A stretch of 37,662 nt of DNA. Source: Peptoniphilus timonensis JC401 (GTDB lineage: Bacteria > Bacillota > Clostridia > Tissierellales > Peptoniphilaceae). Made by a program: the position numbers and the translations under genes. Shown one piece after another: positions 60 to 24,802 of the stretch (position 1 is its first letter; each line of letters begins with the position of its first letter). The notes below the pieces were generated by a model, which had not been told where the DNA came from, searched no databases, and saw only the letters and a list, made by a program, of their open reading frames with translations. The stretch spans positions 263,548 to 301,209 of the forward strand of contig NZ_HE978594.1 of NCBI RefSeq assembly GCF_000312025.1. Direction: 5' to 3'.

Positions 60-96
60 TAAAAAAAGACGACAGAATTACTGCTTTCTATCGTCT
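60..96 (-). terminator. Rho-independent terminator after the truncated methylase gene
   Basis: An 11-bp stem (67-77 with 86-96) is followed on the minus strand by seven T. The single imperfect pair is a G-U wobble when read on the minus strand and a mismatch on the plus strand, so it serves minus-strand transcription. Confidence 0.75.
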
Positions 97-197
97 GAGA
101 TTTGCACATTAAATTTTCATCACAAAATAAGACTCTTTAAAGAATCCTTAGTTTTATTGGTATGCTATTTACAATACCCATTATTAAAATGGATACT

Positions 198-1839: not shown

Positions 1840-4800
1840 TTATTCGTTAGATTTTAGTGCATCTAGGGCGTTTATTTTCTTTATTCTAAAGTGGAATATA
1901 ATCATTATTATTGTGTTTACAAAAGCTGTTATTATTCCCGCCAAGATAAAGGGTCTTGGGCTCAAGTCTTCTGGCAACATTGCCATAAAGGGAACGACTA
2001 TTTGAAGGACAGAGTAATGGAGGATTTTCCCCACAAAAAGTCCAATAAATATTCCAATTATTGCCAAGATATAGGTTTCTTTGTAAATATAGGATGTTGT
2101 TTCTTTTGGATAAAATCCAAGGACTTTTATCGTGGAAACTTCTCTTATTCTTTCTTCTATATTTATGTTTGTCAGGTTATAGAGAACTACAACTTCTAGA
2201 ATTGTTGTCACGATTAATATAATTAATTCTACTTGAGTTATTGAAAATAAAAATTGGTTTAGGACATCTTTCATGTCATCGACATTTGCTATGTTAAAGA
2301 CTGATTTGTTTTCTATGCTTGTTTTTATAAATTTGTCTTTGTCAAAGTTTTCAGACACTTTTATTAAATGAGTATTTGATTTAAAGTCAGAGCCTGTCAC
2401 TTTTTCAAAATAGTCTTTATCCATGTAAATGTTGTGTCCCAAATAAAACTCGCTTATTCCTACTACTTCTACTTCAAATTCATTGCCGTAGACATCTTTT
2501 ATTTCTAGAGGATCTCCTACTTTTATTTTTTTAAGTTTGGATAATTTTTCTGTTATTATCACTCCTCTTTTTGGAAGTTCTAATTCTTTTCCACTGTCTT
2601 TGTCAAATAGGGCAAGATAATTTTTAAATTCTTCTTTGTCACCTGGGACTATTACATTTACTGACTGGTCTATTTCATCGTAATCTACTGTAAATAATTC
2701 TTCATAGGCTTCAGTGTAATTTATGTTTTTATCTTTTAGAGAATTTTTATATTTTTCATAGGCTTCTTCATCTAAGTCGCTGTCGTATAAAACAGACAAG
2801 TCGTATTTTAAAATATTTTTAAATTGTAATTTTTCTACGTCTTTAACTGATTCTGATATGCCAAATCCTAAAACTAAAAGAGCTGCACAACCGAGAACTC
2901 CCACTACTGTCATGAACATTCTCTTTTTTGATAAGAATAGATTTCTTGCTGTTACTTTAGATAAAAAGCTCATTTTATTCCAAATAAAAGGAATTTTTTC
3001 CAATAATATTCTGTTTCCCTTAGCTGGAACTTTTCCCCTAAGCAGATAAGCTGTTTTTTCTTTCAAGTTTTTATTCACTGTTATCATTGCTGCCACGCTG
3101 GTGAATAAAAATCCTATTGCTATGGCGAAAATTATCCTAAGAGGAAATATGTTTATTATTAATTTATCTTGGAATATTGTTTTAGTGGAGTAGGCATTTC
3201 CTATGATGTAGGTCAAAATATAGGATCCTGATATTGCACCTATTAGTCCACCAATGAGTGATGCTAAAGATCCATAAAGGAAAAACTTTTTGCCTATTTC
3301 TCTATTTGTATAACCCAATGCCTTGTAAGCTCCTATGACAAGTCTGTTCTCATCAACCATCCTAGTCATTGTTGTGAAGCAAACTAAAAGGGCTATGGCA
3401 AAGAAAAATATTGGAAATATAAAGGACAAGCCATCCACTCTTTTTGCATAATCCATATAGGTGTTTATGTCAGTGGATAAATGTCTAGCTGTAATTGTGT
3501 AGCGAGGTTGTTTTATCAAGCTGAGGTATTTTCTTCCATCGGCGATTTTGTCTTTTGCATCAGATATTTTTTCGTCAGCTTCTTTGGATTTATCCTCGTA
3601 CTCGCTTTCACCCTTGTTTAAGTCTTTTTCTGCCTTGTAGAGTTTTGACTTTGCATCATTTAACTCATCTTTACCAGATTTAAGTTCTTTATCTAGTCTC
3701 TCTTCTCCTCTTTTTAATTCATCACTTCCAGATAAATATTTTTCTTTAGCTCTAGAAAGTTTTTCCCTGCCTTCAAAGTAATCATCGTATTTTTCATCAT
3801 ATTCTTTTTTCCCAGATTCATAATCGGCAGTTCCCTTGTTTAATTTTTCTTCAGATTCATCTAGTTTATCTTTTGCATTAGATAATTCTATTCTTGCATC
3901 TTCAAGTTTCTTTTTATTTTCTTCTATTTCTTCTTTGCTTTTTGCGTATTCTCTTTCTCCTTTTTCTGCTTCAGCAATTCCTTCTTCAAGTTGGGCTTTC
4001 CCTTCTTCTATTTGCTTTTTGCTGGCATCGAGAGTTCCTCTAGCTTGTGCAAGTTTCTTTTCATTTTCAGAAATTGTTTGGATTCCCTTTTTAGCTTCAC
4101 TTAATTTTGCACTCACATCAGCTAAATTTCCTGTTACTCCACCTGGCACTTCTTTGTTTATTTCTTCTACTGCCTTGTCAATTTCTTTCTTAGATCTATC
4201 AAGAATTTCTAATTTTTTATTTAAGTCAGCCTTATTTTTTTGAAGAGCAGATTTTTTCCCTTCAAGTCCTACAATTTGCCCTTCTATATTTTTCTTTTTT
4301 TCATCAGAAATATTTGGATCCTTTAAGGAAGATCTTAAACTTCCGATTTCAGAATCTATTCCAGAAATTTCTCCCTCAACTTCTCTGATTTGAGAATTTG
4401 TCCTATTTATTTCTTCTTCAATAGTAGGAAGTTTCTTCACTACATCTTCTGCAGTTGATAAAATTTTATCTAAGGCATAGACTTTTTCGACAGCATCTTC
4501 ATAAGATGAAGCACCCATTTCTTTAGTGAGTTTATTTTTTCCATCTTCAAGCTTTTCTTTTCCAAGCTCATACTCTCTCTCGCCGTCTTCATATTTTTTT
4601 ATGCCCTCAGATAATTTTTTTCTTTGATTCTTCTATCTTATCCCAGCCATCGTCAAGTTTTTTCCTTCCATCAGCTAGTTGGTCTTCTCCTTCTTTTAAA
4701 GCTTTTTCTGAAGCTTCAAATTCTCCGAGACCTCTTTGATATTTTTCTTTCCCTTCACTTAATTTTTTTCTTCCAGAATTTAATTCAGATTTGGCATCAT

Positions 4801-20801: not shown

Positions 20802-20830
20802 TTGACTTCTTTCTGCTAGTAATGTAAACT
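20802..20830 (+). promoter_or_regulatory. Probable promoter of the tryptophanase operon
   Basis: TTGACT (20802-20807), 17 bases, TAAACT (20825-20830). The predicted start near 20837 gives a leader of about 160 bases that contains both tandem elements described next. Confidence 0.5.
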
Positions 20831-20837
20831 ATTTCAT

Positions 20838-20975
20838 AGATAATACATATTATCTTGGAGTTCTGACCGCTCATCAAGAAAGAAATTTTTAAAATTTTGA
20901 TAACCGGGGTTCTCTATAGGATACTGTCCGCTAGTCGACTTTTGTCGATGACCGGGGTTCCTCTATAACTTTTTT
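20838..20975 (+). promoter_or_regulatory. Tandem structured leader (candidate attenuator or riboswitch) of tnaA
   Basis: The leader holds three structures. First a perfect 7-bp hairpin AGATAAT-ACAT-ATTATCT (20838-20855). Then two related elements, about 20857-20918 and 20915-20967. Each has GGA, a CTG-N-CCGCT block, a hairpin, then ACCGGGGTTC and TCTATA. The hairpin stems differ but still pair: ATCAA/TTGAT in the first, TCGAC/GTCGA in the second. CCG and CGG can close the internal loop in both. The second element is also closed by TATAGGA with TCCTCTATA and is followed by six T (20970-20975), like an intrinsic terminator placed before the ribosome site. The last TATA of element one is the first arm of element two, so only one fold may form at a time. 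I recognise no known riboswitch class. Confidence 0.6.
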
Positions 20976-20996
20976 ATTTTTATATGGAGGTTTTTT

Positions 20997-22640
20997 ATGA
21001 AAAAGTATCAATTAGACGTACCTACACCACATTCCTACACTTATGTTACAAAGAATATTCCAAATGTAACTGTGGAACAAAGAGAAAGAGCCCTAAAGGC
21101 TACTCACTACAATGAATTTGCTTTCCCTGCAGGAATGTTAACTATCGATATGTTATCTGACTCAGGAACTACTGCCATGACAGATGTTCAATGGTCTGCA
21201 ATGTTTTTGGGTGATGAATCTTATGGAAGAAACAAGGGCTACTATGTTCTCTTAGATACCTTTAGAGATGTCTTTGAAAGAGGCGACGATCAAAAGAGAA
21301 TTATTGACCTTGTGAGAACTGACTGCGACGATGTTGAAAAAATGATGAACGAAGTTTACCTTTGTGAATATGAAGGTGGACTATTTAACGGTGGCTCTGC
21401 ACAAATGGAAAGACCTAATACTTTTATCATCCAACAAGGTCGTGCAGCTGAATCTGTTTTATTTGAACTTGTAAGAAATATTTTAAATGCAAGAGAACCA
21501 GGAAAGACTTATACTATTCCTTCAAATGGACACTTTGACACAACTGAAGGAAATATTAAACAAATGGGATCTATCCCAAGAAACTTATACAATAAAGAAC
21601 TTTTGTGGGAAGTTCCTGAAAATGGTCACTATGAAAAGAATCCATTTAAAGGCAACATGGACACAAAGAAATTGGAAGAATTAATTGAAAAATTAGGACC
21701 AGAAAATGTTCCTCTAATTTATACAACTATTACAAACAACACAGTTTGTGGTCAACCAGTTTCTATGGCAAACATGAGAGAATGTTCAAGAATTGCTCAC
21801 AAATACGAAATACCTTATATGTTTGATGCTGCAAGATGGGCAGAAAATGCTTACTTCATAAAAGTTAATGAAGAAGGCTACGCTGACAAATCAATCCCAG
21901 AAATTGCAAAGGAAATGTTCTCTTATTGTGACGGTTTCACTGCTTCTCTTAAAAAAGATGGACACGCAAACATGGGTGGCGTTCTTGCCTTTAGAGATAA
22001 GGGTTTATTCTGGAAGAAGTTCTCTGACTTTAATGAAGATGGATCAGTTAAAACTGATGTAGGTATTTTATTAAAAGTTAAACAAATTTCTTCTTACGGA
22101 AATGACTCCTATGGTGGAATGAGTGGTAGAGATATTATGGCACTTGCTGCTGGTCTTTATGAAGCAGCTAAGTTTGATTATCTTGATGCCCGTGTTAAAC
22201 AATGTGAATACCTTGCACAAGGATTTTACAAAGCTGGCGTAAAGGGCGTTGTACTTCCTGCTGGTGGCCACGGTGTTTACATCAACATGGACGAATTTTT
22301 CGACAACAAGAGAGCACCAGAAACTTTTGCTGGTCAAGGTTTCTCTGTCGAATTAATTAGACGTTATGGAATTAGAACTGCAGAACTAGGCAACTATTCA
22401 ATGGAATATGATTTAAAAACTCCAGAACAACAAGCTGAAGTGGCAAACGTAGTTCGTTTTGCAGTAAACAGAAGTCAACTTTCTAAGGAACACATGGATT
22501 ATGTAATTGCAGCTGTAAAGGCTCTTTATGAAGATCGTGCTACTATTCCTAATATTAGAATAGTAAAGGGTAAAAACCTTCCAATGCGTCACTTCCACGC
22601 TTTCCTAGAAACTTATGAACCTTCTGAAGATGAAAAATAA
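20997..22640 (+). CDS. tnaA: Tryptophanase (tryptophan indole-lyase)
   Basis: PLP enzyme that cleaves tryptophan to indole, pyruvate and ammonia. 547 residues, longer than the usual 450-475 because of about 50 extra residues near 95-142, before the conserved QQGRAAES. The PLP lysine is Lys320 in SLKKDGHANMGG, and Asp277/Arg280 in MFDAARWAENAYF bind the cofactor. Two residues that separate the enzyme from its sister tyrosine phenol-lyase both point to tryptophan: Asp181 in FDTTEG (Thr in the lyase for tyrosine) and His532 in MRHFHA (Phe in the tyrosine enzyme). GGAGG precedes the ATG. The transporter gene follows after 77 bases. The C-terminal RRVYT motif of the family is altered to NRSQLSK. 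Confidence 0.88.
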   Translation: MKKYQLDVPTPHSYTYVTKNIPNVTVEQRERALKATHYNEFAFPAGMLTIDMLSDSGTTAMTDVQWSAMFLGDESYGRNKGYYVLLDTFRDVFERGDDQKRIIDLVRTDCDDVEKMMNEVYLCEYEGGLFNGGSAQMERPNTFIIQQGRAAESVLFELVRNILNAREPGKTYTIPSNGHFDTTEGNIKQMGSIPRNLYNKELLWEVPENGHYEKNPFKGNMDTKKLEELIEKLGPENVPLIYTTITNNTVCGQPVSMANMRECSRIAHKYEIPYMFDAARWAENAYFIKVNEEGYADKSIPEIAKEMFSYCDGFTASLKKDGHANMGGVLAFRDKGLFWKKFSDFNEDGSVKTDVGILLKVKQISSYGNDSYGGMSGRDIMALAAGLYEAAKFDYLDARVKQCEYLAQGFYKAGVKGVVLPAGGHGVYINMDEFFDNKRAPETFAGQGFSVELIRRYGIRTAELGNYSMEYDLKTPEQQAEVANVVRFAVNRSQLSKEHMDYVIAAVKALYEDRATIPNIRIVKGKNLPMRHFHAFLETYEPSEDEK

Positions 22641-22717: not shown

Positions 22718-24058
22718 ATGGATAACAACTTGAAAACTCGTGATGGTTTTAAAAGCAAATGGGGCTTTATACTTGCTTGTATAGGCTCTGCAGTTGGAAT
22801 GGGTAATATTTGGAGATTTCCTATAATGGTTTCTACCTATGGTGGCATGACTTTTTTAATCCCTTACATAATATTTGTAACTCTTATAGGATCTACTGGA
22901 GTAATTTCTGAAATGGCACTTGGTAGATCAGCTGATGCTGGACCTGTTGGTGCCTTTGGAAAATGTACAGAACTAAGATGGAAAAATAGAAAACTTGGAG
23001 AAATAATTGGACTTATTCCAGTCCTTGGTTCCCTTGCCCTAGCAATAGGTTACACTTGTGTAATGGGATGGATTTTTAAATACACTTTCCTTTCCCTATC
23101 AGGTGGACTTTATGCAATGGGTCAAGACATGGATGTAATTGGTGGAACTTTTGGACAAACAGCATCTGCCTTTGGTGCAAATATCTGGATAATTATAGCT
23201 GTCCTTGCAAGTTTTACCATTATGGTCATGGGAGTATCAGGTGGAATTGAAAAGGCAAATAAAATTATGATGCCTGTCCTCTTTATTTTATTTGTTGGAC
23301 TTGGAATTTACATCTTTACTCTTCCTGGTGCAGCTAATGGATATAAATACATCTTTACAGTAAACCCAGAAGGATTAAAGGATCCAAAAGTTTGGATTTT
23401 TGCCTTTGGACAAGCCTTTTTCTCCTTATCAGTTGCAGGAAATGGAACAGTAATTTATGGATCTTATCTACCAAAAAACGAAAGCATTCCATCATCTGCG
23501 AGAAATGTAGCAGTTTTTGACACAATAGCAGCTCTACTTGCTGCCTTTGTTATTATCCCAGCAATGGCAACAGCAAATGCACCACTTGATACTGGTGGTC
23601 CTGGACTTATGTTTATCTTCCTAGTAAATGTATTTAACGGAATGGCTGTTGGAAGAATCGTAGGAATTATTTTCTACGTCTGTGTACTTTTCGCAGGTGT
23701 ATCTTCAATAATAAATCTTTACGAAACACCAGTAGCTTACTTGCAAGAAAAATTTAATTTCTCAAGACCTATTGCAACAACAACTATCCATATAATTGGT
23801 TGTATAGTGGCAATATTTATCCAAGCAATAGTAAGTGGTTGGATGGATGTAGTTTCAATTTACATTTGCCCACTAGGAGCAGCACTTGCTGGTATAATGT
23901 TCCTTTGGGTTGCAGGAAAAGATTATGCACTTTCTGCAGTAAACCAAGGTGCATTAAAACCAATTGGATCTTGGTACTATCCACTTGCAAAATATGTATA
24001 TGTAACAGCTGCCATAGTTGCCCTAATAGCAGGTGCAATGCTTGGTGGTATTGGTTGA
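22718..24058 (+). CDS. Sodium-dependent amino-acid transporter, NSS (SNF) family
   Basis: Inner-membrane Na+-coupled symporter of 446 residues with about eleven to twelve helices, the LeuT fold. The unwound TM1 motif GSAVGMGNIWRFP (23-35) carries sodium and substrate ligands, and GGMTFLIPY in TM2 is equally typical. Relatives include the tryptophan transporter TnaT of Symbiobacterium, the tyrosine transporter Tyt1 of Fusobacterium, LeuT and MhsT. Directly behind tnaA, it most likely imports tryptophan for indole production; that is inferred from position. AAGGAG is seven bases before the ATG. A strong terminator closes the operon. Confidence 0.92.
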   Translation: MDNNLKTRDGFKSKWGFILACIGSAVGMGNIWRFPIMVSTYGGMTFLIPYIIFVTLIGSTGVISEMALGRSADAGPVGAFGKCTELRWKNRKLGEIIGLIPVLGSLALAIGYTCVMGWIFKYTFLSLSGGLYAMGQDMDVIGGTFGQTASAFGANIWIIIAVLASFTIMVMGVSGGIEKANKIMMPVLFILFVGLGIYIFTLPGAANGYKYIFTVNPEGLKDPKVWIFAFGQAFFSLSVAGNGTVIYGSYLPKNESIPSSARNVAVFDTIAALLAAFVIIPAMATANAPLDTGGPGLMFIFLVNVFNGMAVGRIVGIIFYVCVLFAGVSSIINLYETPVAYLQEKFNFSRPIATTTIHIIGCIVAIFIQAIVSGWMDVVSIYICPLGAALAGIMFLWVAGKDYALSAVNQGALKPIGSWYYPLAKYVYVTAAIVALIAGAMLGGIG

Positions 24059-24240: not shown

Positions 24241-24802
24241 ATGAAAAAGAAATATCTCATTATTTTATTGACACTTCCCTTAATTTTTAGTGCTTGTAAA
24301 AAAACAAATAGCGAAAGTGCAAATTCTAGCCAAGAAGCAGCTAAAAATTCTATTCAAAGTGAAAAAGTTGAAACAGAAGAAAAAAGAAGATAATCAAATC
24401 GAAGAAAAATATAATATTGTGGCACTAACTAAAAATATTTCTATTATTTTAAAAGAAATTGGCTATGAAAATGTTGGTGGAACAGTAGAAGAAGCAAAAG
24501 ATCTTTATCCCCAAGCAAAAATTATTGGAAGCGAAAAAAATCCAGATTCAGATTTAGTTTTTGAAGTCTATCCAGACTTAATTATTACAGATTCCTCTAG
24601 TCACAGTGATTTTCTTTCAAAAATGGATGATTATAATTTTAAGAAACAACGTCGCTCTATGACTAACCCTCTTTCTTCTGCACCTACTTTAGAAGAATAT
24701 ATTTACATTTTCTGCAAGGAAATAGATTATCCTAAGTATAGTGAAGAAAATCCTATACCAGAAGATTTGTTAAATAAAATAGAAAAAGAATTAAATCAAT
24801 AA
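24241..24802 (+). CDS. Small lipoprotein resembling one lobe of an iron/cobalamin-type binding protein (one frameshift)
   Basis: Starts at ATG 24241 with AGGAGG seven bases upstream. A lipoprotein signal (MKKKYLIILLTLPLIFSAC) ends at Cys19, followed by a short polar linker. As read it stops after about 50 codons; removing one A from the run at 24380-24385 continues into 24396-24802, for 186 residues in all. The main part (IVALTKNISIILKEIGYENVGGTV ... PDLIITDSS) resembles the first lobe of class III periplasmic binding proteins (BtuF/FhuD-like), in which VxL-xxSxTEIL and KPDLVI are hallmarks. The usual long helix and second lobe are missing, so it may be degenerate or a stand-alone lobe. No ABC genes are adjacent. 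Shared terminator with gloB. Confidence 0.65.

Follow-up and report, generated by a model that had tools for sequence, protein, structure and literature searches.

A conserved structured RNA in the leaders of tryptophanase genes: a candidate tryptophan-responsive translational riboswitch

In Escherichia coli, the tryptophanase gene tnaA is controlled by the TnaC leader peptide; the enzyme uses pyridoxal phosphate (PLP) and yields indole, pyruvate and ammonia. Other amino-acid genes are preceded by structured leaders, such as the glycine riboswitch, which has tandem aptamers and works in the ON direction, and the T-box leaders of Firmicutes. From in vitro selection, the tryptophan site of Majerfeld and Yarus reportedly has as its simplest form CYA opposite GAC, a form noted as the expected site before the sequence of the engineered riboswitch Blc3 was examined. 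Here we analyze the leader of tnaA in a 37,662-nucleotide (nt) stretch of Peptoniphilus timonensis JC401 (GCF_000312025.1, contig NZ_HE978594.1, positions 263,548 to 301,209, forward strand; hereafter the window), in which an RNA element occurs twice upstream of the gene.

In the consulted portion of a 2022 review, the only validated amino-acid riboswitches are those for glycine, lysine and glutamine (PMC9971707), and the tryptophan riboswitches named in the excerpts examined (PMC11126579 among them) are engineered ones. According to another study, tryptophan riboswitches had not been predicted for S. meliloti or related alpha-proteobacteria (PMC2245857). We found no natural tryptophan or tnaA riboswitch in an open-licence subset of PMC, a search that did not cover three papers naming a tryptophan riboswitch (PMC5984347, PMC6506968, PMC7445825). 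According to the consulted sections of a review by Yarus, the selected tryptophan site needs a G flanking its loop and concentrates the Trp anticodon (PMC5492135), and the engineered tryptophan riboswitches Blc3 and Blc4 are credited, in the extracts of PMC11126579, to Majerfeld and Yarus 2005 and Yang 2013. An orphan riboswitch candidate of Firmicutes and Fusobacteria, the trpB motif (SRC-39-1), is described in the main text of PMC11109978 with a terminator and other genes.

Judged by comparison with relatives, the two window elements are tandem copies of one ~55-nt structured RNA, and this widespread class, which precedes tryptophanase genes, is probably best explained as a tryptophan-responsive translational riboswitch. 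Element 1 (20853-20920, plus strand; genome G000:C2:284400-284467), placed by a model match, comprises P1 GGAG/CUC, CUGACCG, the loop CUC/AAC, a long AT-rich P3 and ACCGGGG; its letters include CTGACCGCT (20863-20871), the stem ATCAA (20873-20877)/TTGAT and ACCGGGGTTCTCTATA (20903-20918). Element 2 (20914-20968, plus strand), placed by a model match and by its minimum-free-energy (MFE) fold, which shows P1, P2 and P3, has P1 AGGA(U)ACU/GGUUCCU, a GU bulge, P2 CCG/CGG, the loop CUA (20931-20933)/GAC (20950-20952) and P3 GUCGAC/GUCGAU on the same strand, with the letters CTGTCCGCT (20924-20932), the stem TCGAC/GTCGA and ACCGGGGTTCCTCTATA (20951-20967). The two elements that the first-pass annotation described from the sequence alone, sharing core letters and differing in still complementary stems, are thus both present. 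Element 2 scores 70.9 bits with model R1 and 57.8 bits with model R2; element 1 scores 46.6 and 34.6 bits, respectively, and was absent from a further listing at E up to 0.01. At one mismatch or fewer, ACCGGGGTTC is found in the window only at these 2 sites (0.17 expected; 1 of 100 shuffles reached 2), and CCGCT-N4-45-ACCGGGGTTC occurs in the window's own genome only here (2 forward matches; 0 for the reversed pattern), a looser pattern without TTC giving 3 matches. By folding alone, element 2 does better than shuffled sequences (z −2.4) and element 1 no better (z −0.6); the decisive evidence for the elements is, in our judgment, comparative.

Across relatives the fold runs in the order P1, GU bulge, invariant P2 (CCG/CGG), internal loop CYA/RAC and a P3 of variable length, with P1 often GGUAC/GUACC, GAUAC/GUAUC or a G-U version of these, followed by a U-G or C-G pair, and single sequences fold largely this way unaided (fold numbering follows alignment A4; R68 of alignment A5 is R59 of A4). 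Double changes exceeded those in shuffles: 63 sequences gave 57 double-change cells versus 27.0 in shuffles, and A5, which was aligned to the model and so leans towards its structure, gave 78 with the loop pair included versus 28.6, a count reached in 0 of 500 shuffles. When the 3' strand of A5 was slid, pairing fell from 91.4% to at most 45%. Among 1326 column pairs ranked by covariation, the P3 pair 24-64 came first, the loop pair Y19-R68 second and another P3 pair third, the loop pair being C-G 50 times, U-G 19 times, U-A 13 times and never C-A. A TnaA tree of 79 sequences carries 29 compensatory double changes over 10 pairs, and 14 of 14 changes at 19-68 keep standard pairing. P2 never varies and therefore neither supports nor weakens the model; G13, a bulged base three pairs from the loop, is invariant (82/82 rows), and in the 17 A5 rows that were not fetched by the search pattern the core is nearly unchanged. 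Of 82 distinct rows, 55 have CYA/GAC as the loop, and the other 27 read CCU/GAC (14), CUC/AAC (3) or CUA/AAC. Alignments of relatives and tree-based compensatory changes thus bear out the earlier proposal that selection has maintained an RNA fold whose core is conserved and whose stem covaries. On this comparative footing the element is a conserved structured RNA in the 5' leaders of metabolic genes, and we hold with very high confidence that the class is real.

A DNA operator was ruled out because the conserved halves stand at variable spacing and the stem between them changes by compensation. Compensatory stem changes, together with the varying length of the element, also speak against a TnaC-like leader peptide or classical attenuator, in which the conserved letters would be coding; such a peptide has a precedent in the control of E. 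coli tnaA, but no leader open reading frame (ORF) with a Trp codon was seen by eye in the window leader, as the first-pass annotation had remarked, and we find this explanation barely credible. Nor does a known Rfam family account for the element, again as had been supposed: against Rfam 15 (4227 families) it meets no family's curated threshold, the leader at E up to 10 gave six weak, unrelated matches far below gathering (the best, at E 0.16, on the other strand), 10 related loci from several lineages gave none at E up to 1, and the whole window at gathering gave only SpF39, elsewhere in the window.

The RNA is, as far as these genome counts and the downstream tryptophanase genes indicate, rare and tied to that gene. 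A first loose pattern, CCGCT-N5-35-ACCGGGG, met many chance matches in GC-rich genomes, with equally high controls, so a covariance model was used instead. A pattern scan of 84,980 species genomes, in which core invariance is partly by construction since the pattern fixes TACTGTCCGCY..T and RACCGGGGT, returned 94 stretches, 75 of them directly before tryptophanase and 1 before a transporter of the sodium:neurotransmitter symporter (NSS) family. The remaining matches were 2 cut at the end of a stretch and 16 due to chance, at least 10 of the latter representing one recurring stretch in Proteobacteria, Anaerolineales and others; R1 was applied to 14 of the 16 (3 weak matches at 13-17 bits, 11 without a match; L184 and L188 were not scored). 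In the window's family, R1 found the element in 26 of 130 genomes, with two copies in 14 of the 26, and all 26 lie among the 36 genomes with a long-form tnaA (at least 74% identity) and none among the other 94. With R2, in counts that include the genomes used as starting points, the element was found in 16 of 61 genomes of a Fusobacteriaceae set (all 17 matches before tnaA), 14 of 300 in the family of Pseudoflavonifractor, 2 of 45 in another Firmicutes family and 1 of 44 in the family of Zophobihabitans. An even draw of the phylum gave matches in 3 of 398 genomes, namely the window's own, one real and one chance; because strict filters were used, absence in the family and larger searches is weak evidence. 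The model searches yielded 57 loci: in 53, tblastn places tryptophanase or, in one case, NSS downstream, in 2 more (L246, L250) the downstream gene was judged by eye to be tryptophanase, and the last 2 (L198, L226) are chance matches, so that the downstream genes assigned are tryptophanase or NSS only. Similar leaders are therefore present upstream of homologous operons in many lineages, and the suggestion that the element acts in cis on tryptophan catabolism is supported by its tie to tryptophanase genes.

The element precedes both forms of tryptophanase, the long (about 550 amino acids, aa) and the short (about 465 aa). Among its hosts are Peptoniphilus (with Peptoniphilus phoceensis NZ_LN999806.1), Anaerococcus, Murdochiella, Flavonifractor, Oscillibacter, Agathobaculum, Anaerotruncus, Butyricicoccus, Lachnospiraceae, Enterococcus alishanensis, Fusobacteriaceae and the gammaproteobacterium Zophobihabitans entericus. 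The element is doubled in Peptoniphilus and Anaerococcus and also, as a separate case, in an Oscillibacter genome (L105), a recurrence suggesting that doubling has been advantageous more than once, for instance by steepening the response, in which the two copies may cooperate; doubling is not essential, as just one copy is present in 12 of the 26 element-bearing genomes of the window's family. Zophobihabitans entericus (L146/L222) combines element and tryptophanase, a pairing met in 1 of the 44 genomes of its family, suggesting that gene and switch were transferred together. Two genomes, G571 (L227, L241) and Agathobaculum massiliense (L107, L148), contain two tryptophanase genes, each with its own copy of the element. 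In the public metagenome-assembled genome (MAG) RUG14228 (L179), the start of tnaA just 3' of the element is interrupted by a stretch that is an assembly artefact and presumably Illumina adaptor sequence, which it resembles.

This distribution also bears on the alternative that a regulatory protein binds the element and that the protein, rather than a small molecule, decides whether P1 closes. A short hairpin with an invariant internal loop would suit protein binding, ribosomal protein L4 is reported in the accessible part of PMC7186457 to regulate E. coli tnaA through RNA, and direct ligand binding is something that we infer. However, the element spans Firmicutes, Fusobacteriaceae and one gammaproteobacterium (the sole match in its family), so that a partner would have to exist in all these hosts or move with tnaA, and no regulator was recognized among the nine window proteins checked. 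We therefore regard a protein partner as unlikely, while giving it real weight.

How the element might act on tnaA is suggested by predicted folding. In the window, the strand 3' of the aptamer, CCUCUAUA (20960-20967, plus strand), is the putative anti-Shine-Dalgarno, supported by MFE folds and by a counterpart in relatives; it overlaps P1, whose 3' end is formed by its first three bases, and the Shine-Dalgarno GGAGGU of tnaA (20986-20991, plus strand) is sequestered in the alternative predicted fold. The MFE fold of 20914-20996 pairs the anti-Shine-Dalgarno with 20983-20990, that of 20914-20968 places 20959-20962 in P1, and both pairings thus claim 20960-20962; predicted access of the window Shine-Dalgarno is 0.11 when the leader is free and 0.77 with the aptamer held. 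We extended the calculation to 82 leaders, near relatives included, in which the ribosome site was found by pattern, leaving out leaders with more than 60 nt from GGGG to the site (15 rows: upstream tandem copies, the mis-assigned site of L200, and L215 at 68 nt). The ribosome site begins 11-47 nt past GGGG over all 82 leaders, and 14-47 nt outside Fusobacteriaceae (one more at 68 nt). Over whole leaders, predicted access rises from 0.16 free to 0.47 with the aptamer held, and by more than 0.05 in 71 of the 82. Holding only P2, the loop pair and P3 yields just 0.23, from which we conclude that P1 does the work. CCUC directly follows P1 in 54 of 72 leaders outside Fusobacteriaceae, and for these 54 access is 0.06 free, 0.09 with the core only and 0.40 with P1. 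In 34 non-redundant leaders, folded from the last core G on, the Shine-Dalgarno is paired at a mean of 0.77, whereas shuffling the spacers gives 0.61 (the natural value is the higher one in 26 of 34, p 8e-4). Many leaders have a small hairpin between CCUC and the ribosome site, e.g., GGCGC...GCGCC in Agathobaculum, which would bring the two together. Two further candidates were dropped: the 5' core UACNGUCCG as the anti-Shine-Dalgarno of Fusobacteriaceae, which folding did not bear out, and an apparent link between the element and GGAGGUA in the leader, as tnaA genes without the element have GGAGGUA too.

Competition of this kind is predicted in most leaders outside Fusobacteriaceae, where the folding models support competing pairings as a putative expression platform; within that family they do not. 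The modelled platform fits a translational ON switch, not a terminator. The first-pass annotation had proposed that element 2, with the six T that follow it in the window, could act as an intrinsic terminator, and transcription attenuation of this kind, with element 2 being or controlling a terminator at 20970-20975, would require one there; however, the window scan called no plus-strand terminator-like site near 20970, and a hairpin with a T-run was not seen by eye in the 82 leaders, where the ribosome site follows GGGG so closely. We consider attenuation very improbable. A shared TATA at the junction was likewise proposed to make the two folds compete, a suggestion that did not survive comparison, since TATA is not conserved and several relatives read CTCAATTTGG.

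One could thus envision the following sequence of events. When no ligand is present, the strand 3' of the aptamer (in the window CCUCUAUA, with CCUC or UACCUCC as its counterpart in relatives) would pair with GGAGG, leaving tnaA poorly translated. Tryptophan would bind the aptamer at a site probably made up of the CYA/RAC loop together with the bulged G, which flank the invariant CCG/CGG helix; binding would close P1, P1 would take part of the downstream strand, and the ribosome site would be freed, allowing tryptophanase and the transporter to be made. Because closure of P1 by the ligand would turn translation ON, this direction would suit a catabolic gene.

Tryptophan is proposed as the ligand from gene context and from likeness to a printed engineered tryptophan riboswitch. 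Tryptophanase degrades tryptophan, and an NSS transporter follows tnaA in the window. In Pseudoflavonifractor sp. Marseille-P3106, the element at 1890-1963 (minus strand) of locus L121 heads a tnaA-type leader, with its ribosome site, before an NSS transporter that starts ~230-240 nt further along; the tnaA gene of this genome is on a different contig and has a separate copy of the element. Because the leader before the transporter is like that of a tnaA gene, down to its ribosome site, it may be the remnant of a tnaA-transporter operon. Alternatively, the riboswitch may respond to another compound linked to tryptophanase, such as indole, PLP or another amino acid. Gene context cannot separate PLP, indole, pyruvate and ammonia, and the loop varies by lineage, as in the CCU/GAC and CUC/AAC rows noted above. 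However, the sole association other than tnaA is with an NSS-family transporter, which suits a transported substrate over PLP or indole, the assigned downstream genes include no third kind, and the likeness to an engineered tryptophan riboswitch points to tryptophan itself; we consider another ligand distinctly unlikely.

Several observations weigh against a tryptophan-responsive translational riboswitch as the explanation. The near-exclusive tie to one gene does not single out a ligand, and a bound protein would leave similar sequence evidence. In the window's family, 10 of the 36 long-form tnaA genes are without the element, and when those ten loci and four from more distant homologues were scanned with the full model, the best match had E 1.1. 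With respect to the fold, counting pair types by themselves gives no significant signal (the observed count is reached by 146 of 500 shuffles for the 63 sequences and by 62 of 500 for A5), eight of the ten top column pairs were absent from the model as first given (the second-ranked was then added), some model pairs rank low among the 1326, and 26 changes on the tree go from pair to mismatch, most of them in the terminal pairs of P1 and P3. With respect to the platform, free access is already 0.5-0.8 in 8 of 10 Fusobacteriaceae leaders and CCUC is present in 0 of 10; access falls in 7 of the 82 leaders once the aptamer is held, P1 and CCUC overlap by only one or two bases in many leaders, and forcing the aptamer costs a median 7.5 kcal/mol.

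Upstream of the elements, a consensus scan places a promoter, 9 of 12 positions matching, at 20802-20830 on the plus strand (TTGACT 20802-20807, a 17-nt spacer and TAAACT 20825-20830). Sites of this score are weak on their own (4 found versus 3.1 expected); because Peptoniphilus and Anaerococcus relatives, read by eye, keep the arrangement ahead of their tnaA genes, the transcription start probably lies upstream of both elements, and the plausible promoter of the first-pass annotation holds up. A near-palindrome at the -10 box, CTATTTCATAG (20829-20839 of the window and loci L035-L046), is for the most part conserved among the tnaA promoters of Peptoniphilus and Anaerococcus; a repressor could bind there and act besides the RNA. 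The gene itself (20997-22640, plus strand) encodes a long-form tryptophanase of 547 aa, with extra residues around 94-145, that matches NCBIfam tryptophanase PRK13238 (610.7 bits versus a cutoff of 285; the match falls under the cutoffs of the tnaA equivalog models), Pfam Beta_elim_lyase and PDB 8sl7 Tryptophanase, a solved long form (1023 bits). After a gap of 77 nt in which no terminator was called, the NSS-family transporter (22718-24058, plus strand; NCBIfam Na_transp, 71 bits versus a cutoff of 50; Pfam SNF) is probably in the same operon. On the 3' side of the transporter, a 170-aa ORF (24290-24802, plus strand) has a weak IsdE-type substrate-binding match and is short for that family. 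At 62-170 (minus strand), this Peptoniphilus genome has an end-to-end match (121.3 bits) to Rfam SpF39_sRNA, a Streptococcus small RNA family, for which horizontal transfer, or a family wider than its name implies, is possible.

If the element is a riboswitch for tryptophan, it would be the first natural one for an aromatic amino acid among those reported in the literature searched, and the fourth for an amino acid beside glycine, lysine and glutamine. It would also explain control of the production of indole, described in the consulted part of PMC4323232 as a signal between bacteria and hosts, in anaerobes, among them Peptoniphilus, Anaerococcus, Flavonifractor, Agathobaculum and Fusobacteriaceae. 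Because the RNA is small (~55 nt), the proposal is directly testable, and the element could become a tryptophan sensor.

Compared with known systems, the element shares with the TnaC leader of the E. coli tna operon the gene and, for that leader, induction by tryptophan; there the ribosome arrests on a peptide, whereas here there is a conserved RNA fold and no peptide was seen in the window leader. The glycine riboswitch is similar in its amino-acid gene, its tandem copies and the ON direction proposed here, but our element has no Rfam match, is only ~55 nt long with no junction, and is single in many lineages. T-box leaders differ in that no Rfam match was obtained and no antiterminator recognized here, and their physiological direction is the opposite. 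The nearest named natural candidate is the trpB motif, which is also a 5'-UTR (untranslated region) candidate, known from the two phyla named above and linked, tentatively, with the metabolism of amino acids; its terminator and other genes, with 0 mentions of tna in the main text of PMC11109978, set it apart, by description only.

The engineered riboswitches offer a closer parallel at the level of the loop. Blc3, as printed in the extracts of PMC11126579, reads GGGG-ACG-CCA-CUGG...CCAG-GAC-CGU, and the natural element GU-CCG-CYA-P3-GAC-CGG, in the same order, in 55 of the 82 rows; both regulate translation, the natural one by prediction. Set against this likeness, and likewise against our explanation, are that Blc3 in its MFE fold adopts a different register, to which CCA/GAC is inferior by 2.6 kcal/mol, that Blc4 is less clear, with GAC opposite UCUA only at 3.1 kcal/mol above the MFE, and that 27 of the 82 natural loops differ from CYA/GAC, in a comparison of an engineered with a natural system. 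The parallel is thus a good one, but by analogy and not proof. We suggest tentatively, thinking it somewhat more apt to be wrong than right, that this is a natural tryptophan riboswitch whose pocket, formed by the CYA/GAC internal loop with an unpaired G three base pairs away, would match the tryptophan site recovered from random RNA pools, down to the CCA triplet of the Trp anticodon. One and the same site for tryptophan would in that case have arisen twice, once in cells and once by in vitro selection, and the element allows a concrete, inexpensive test of whether the two share it.
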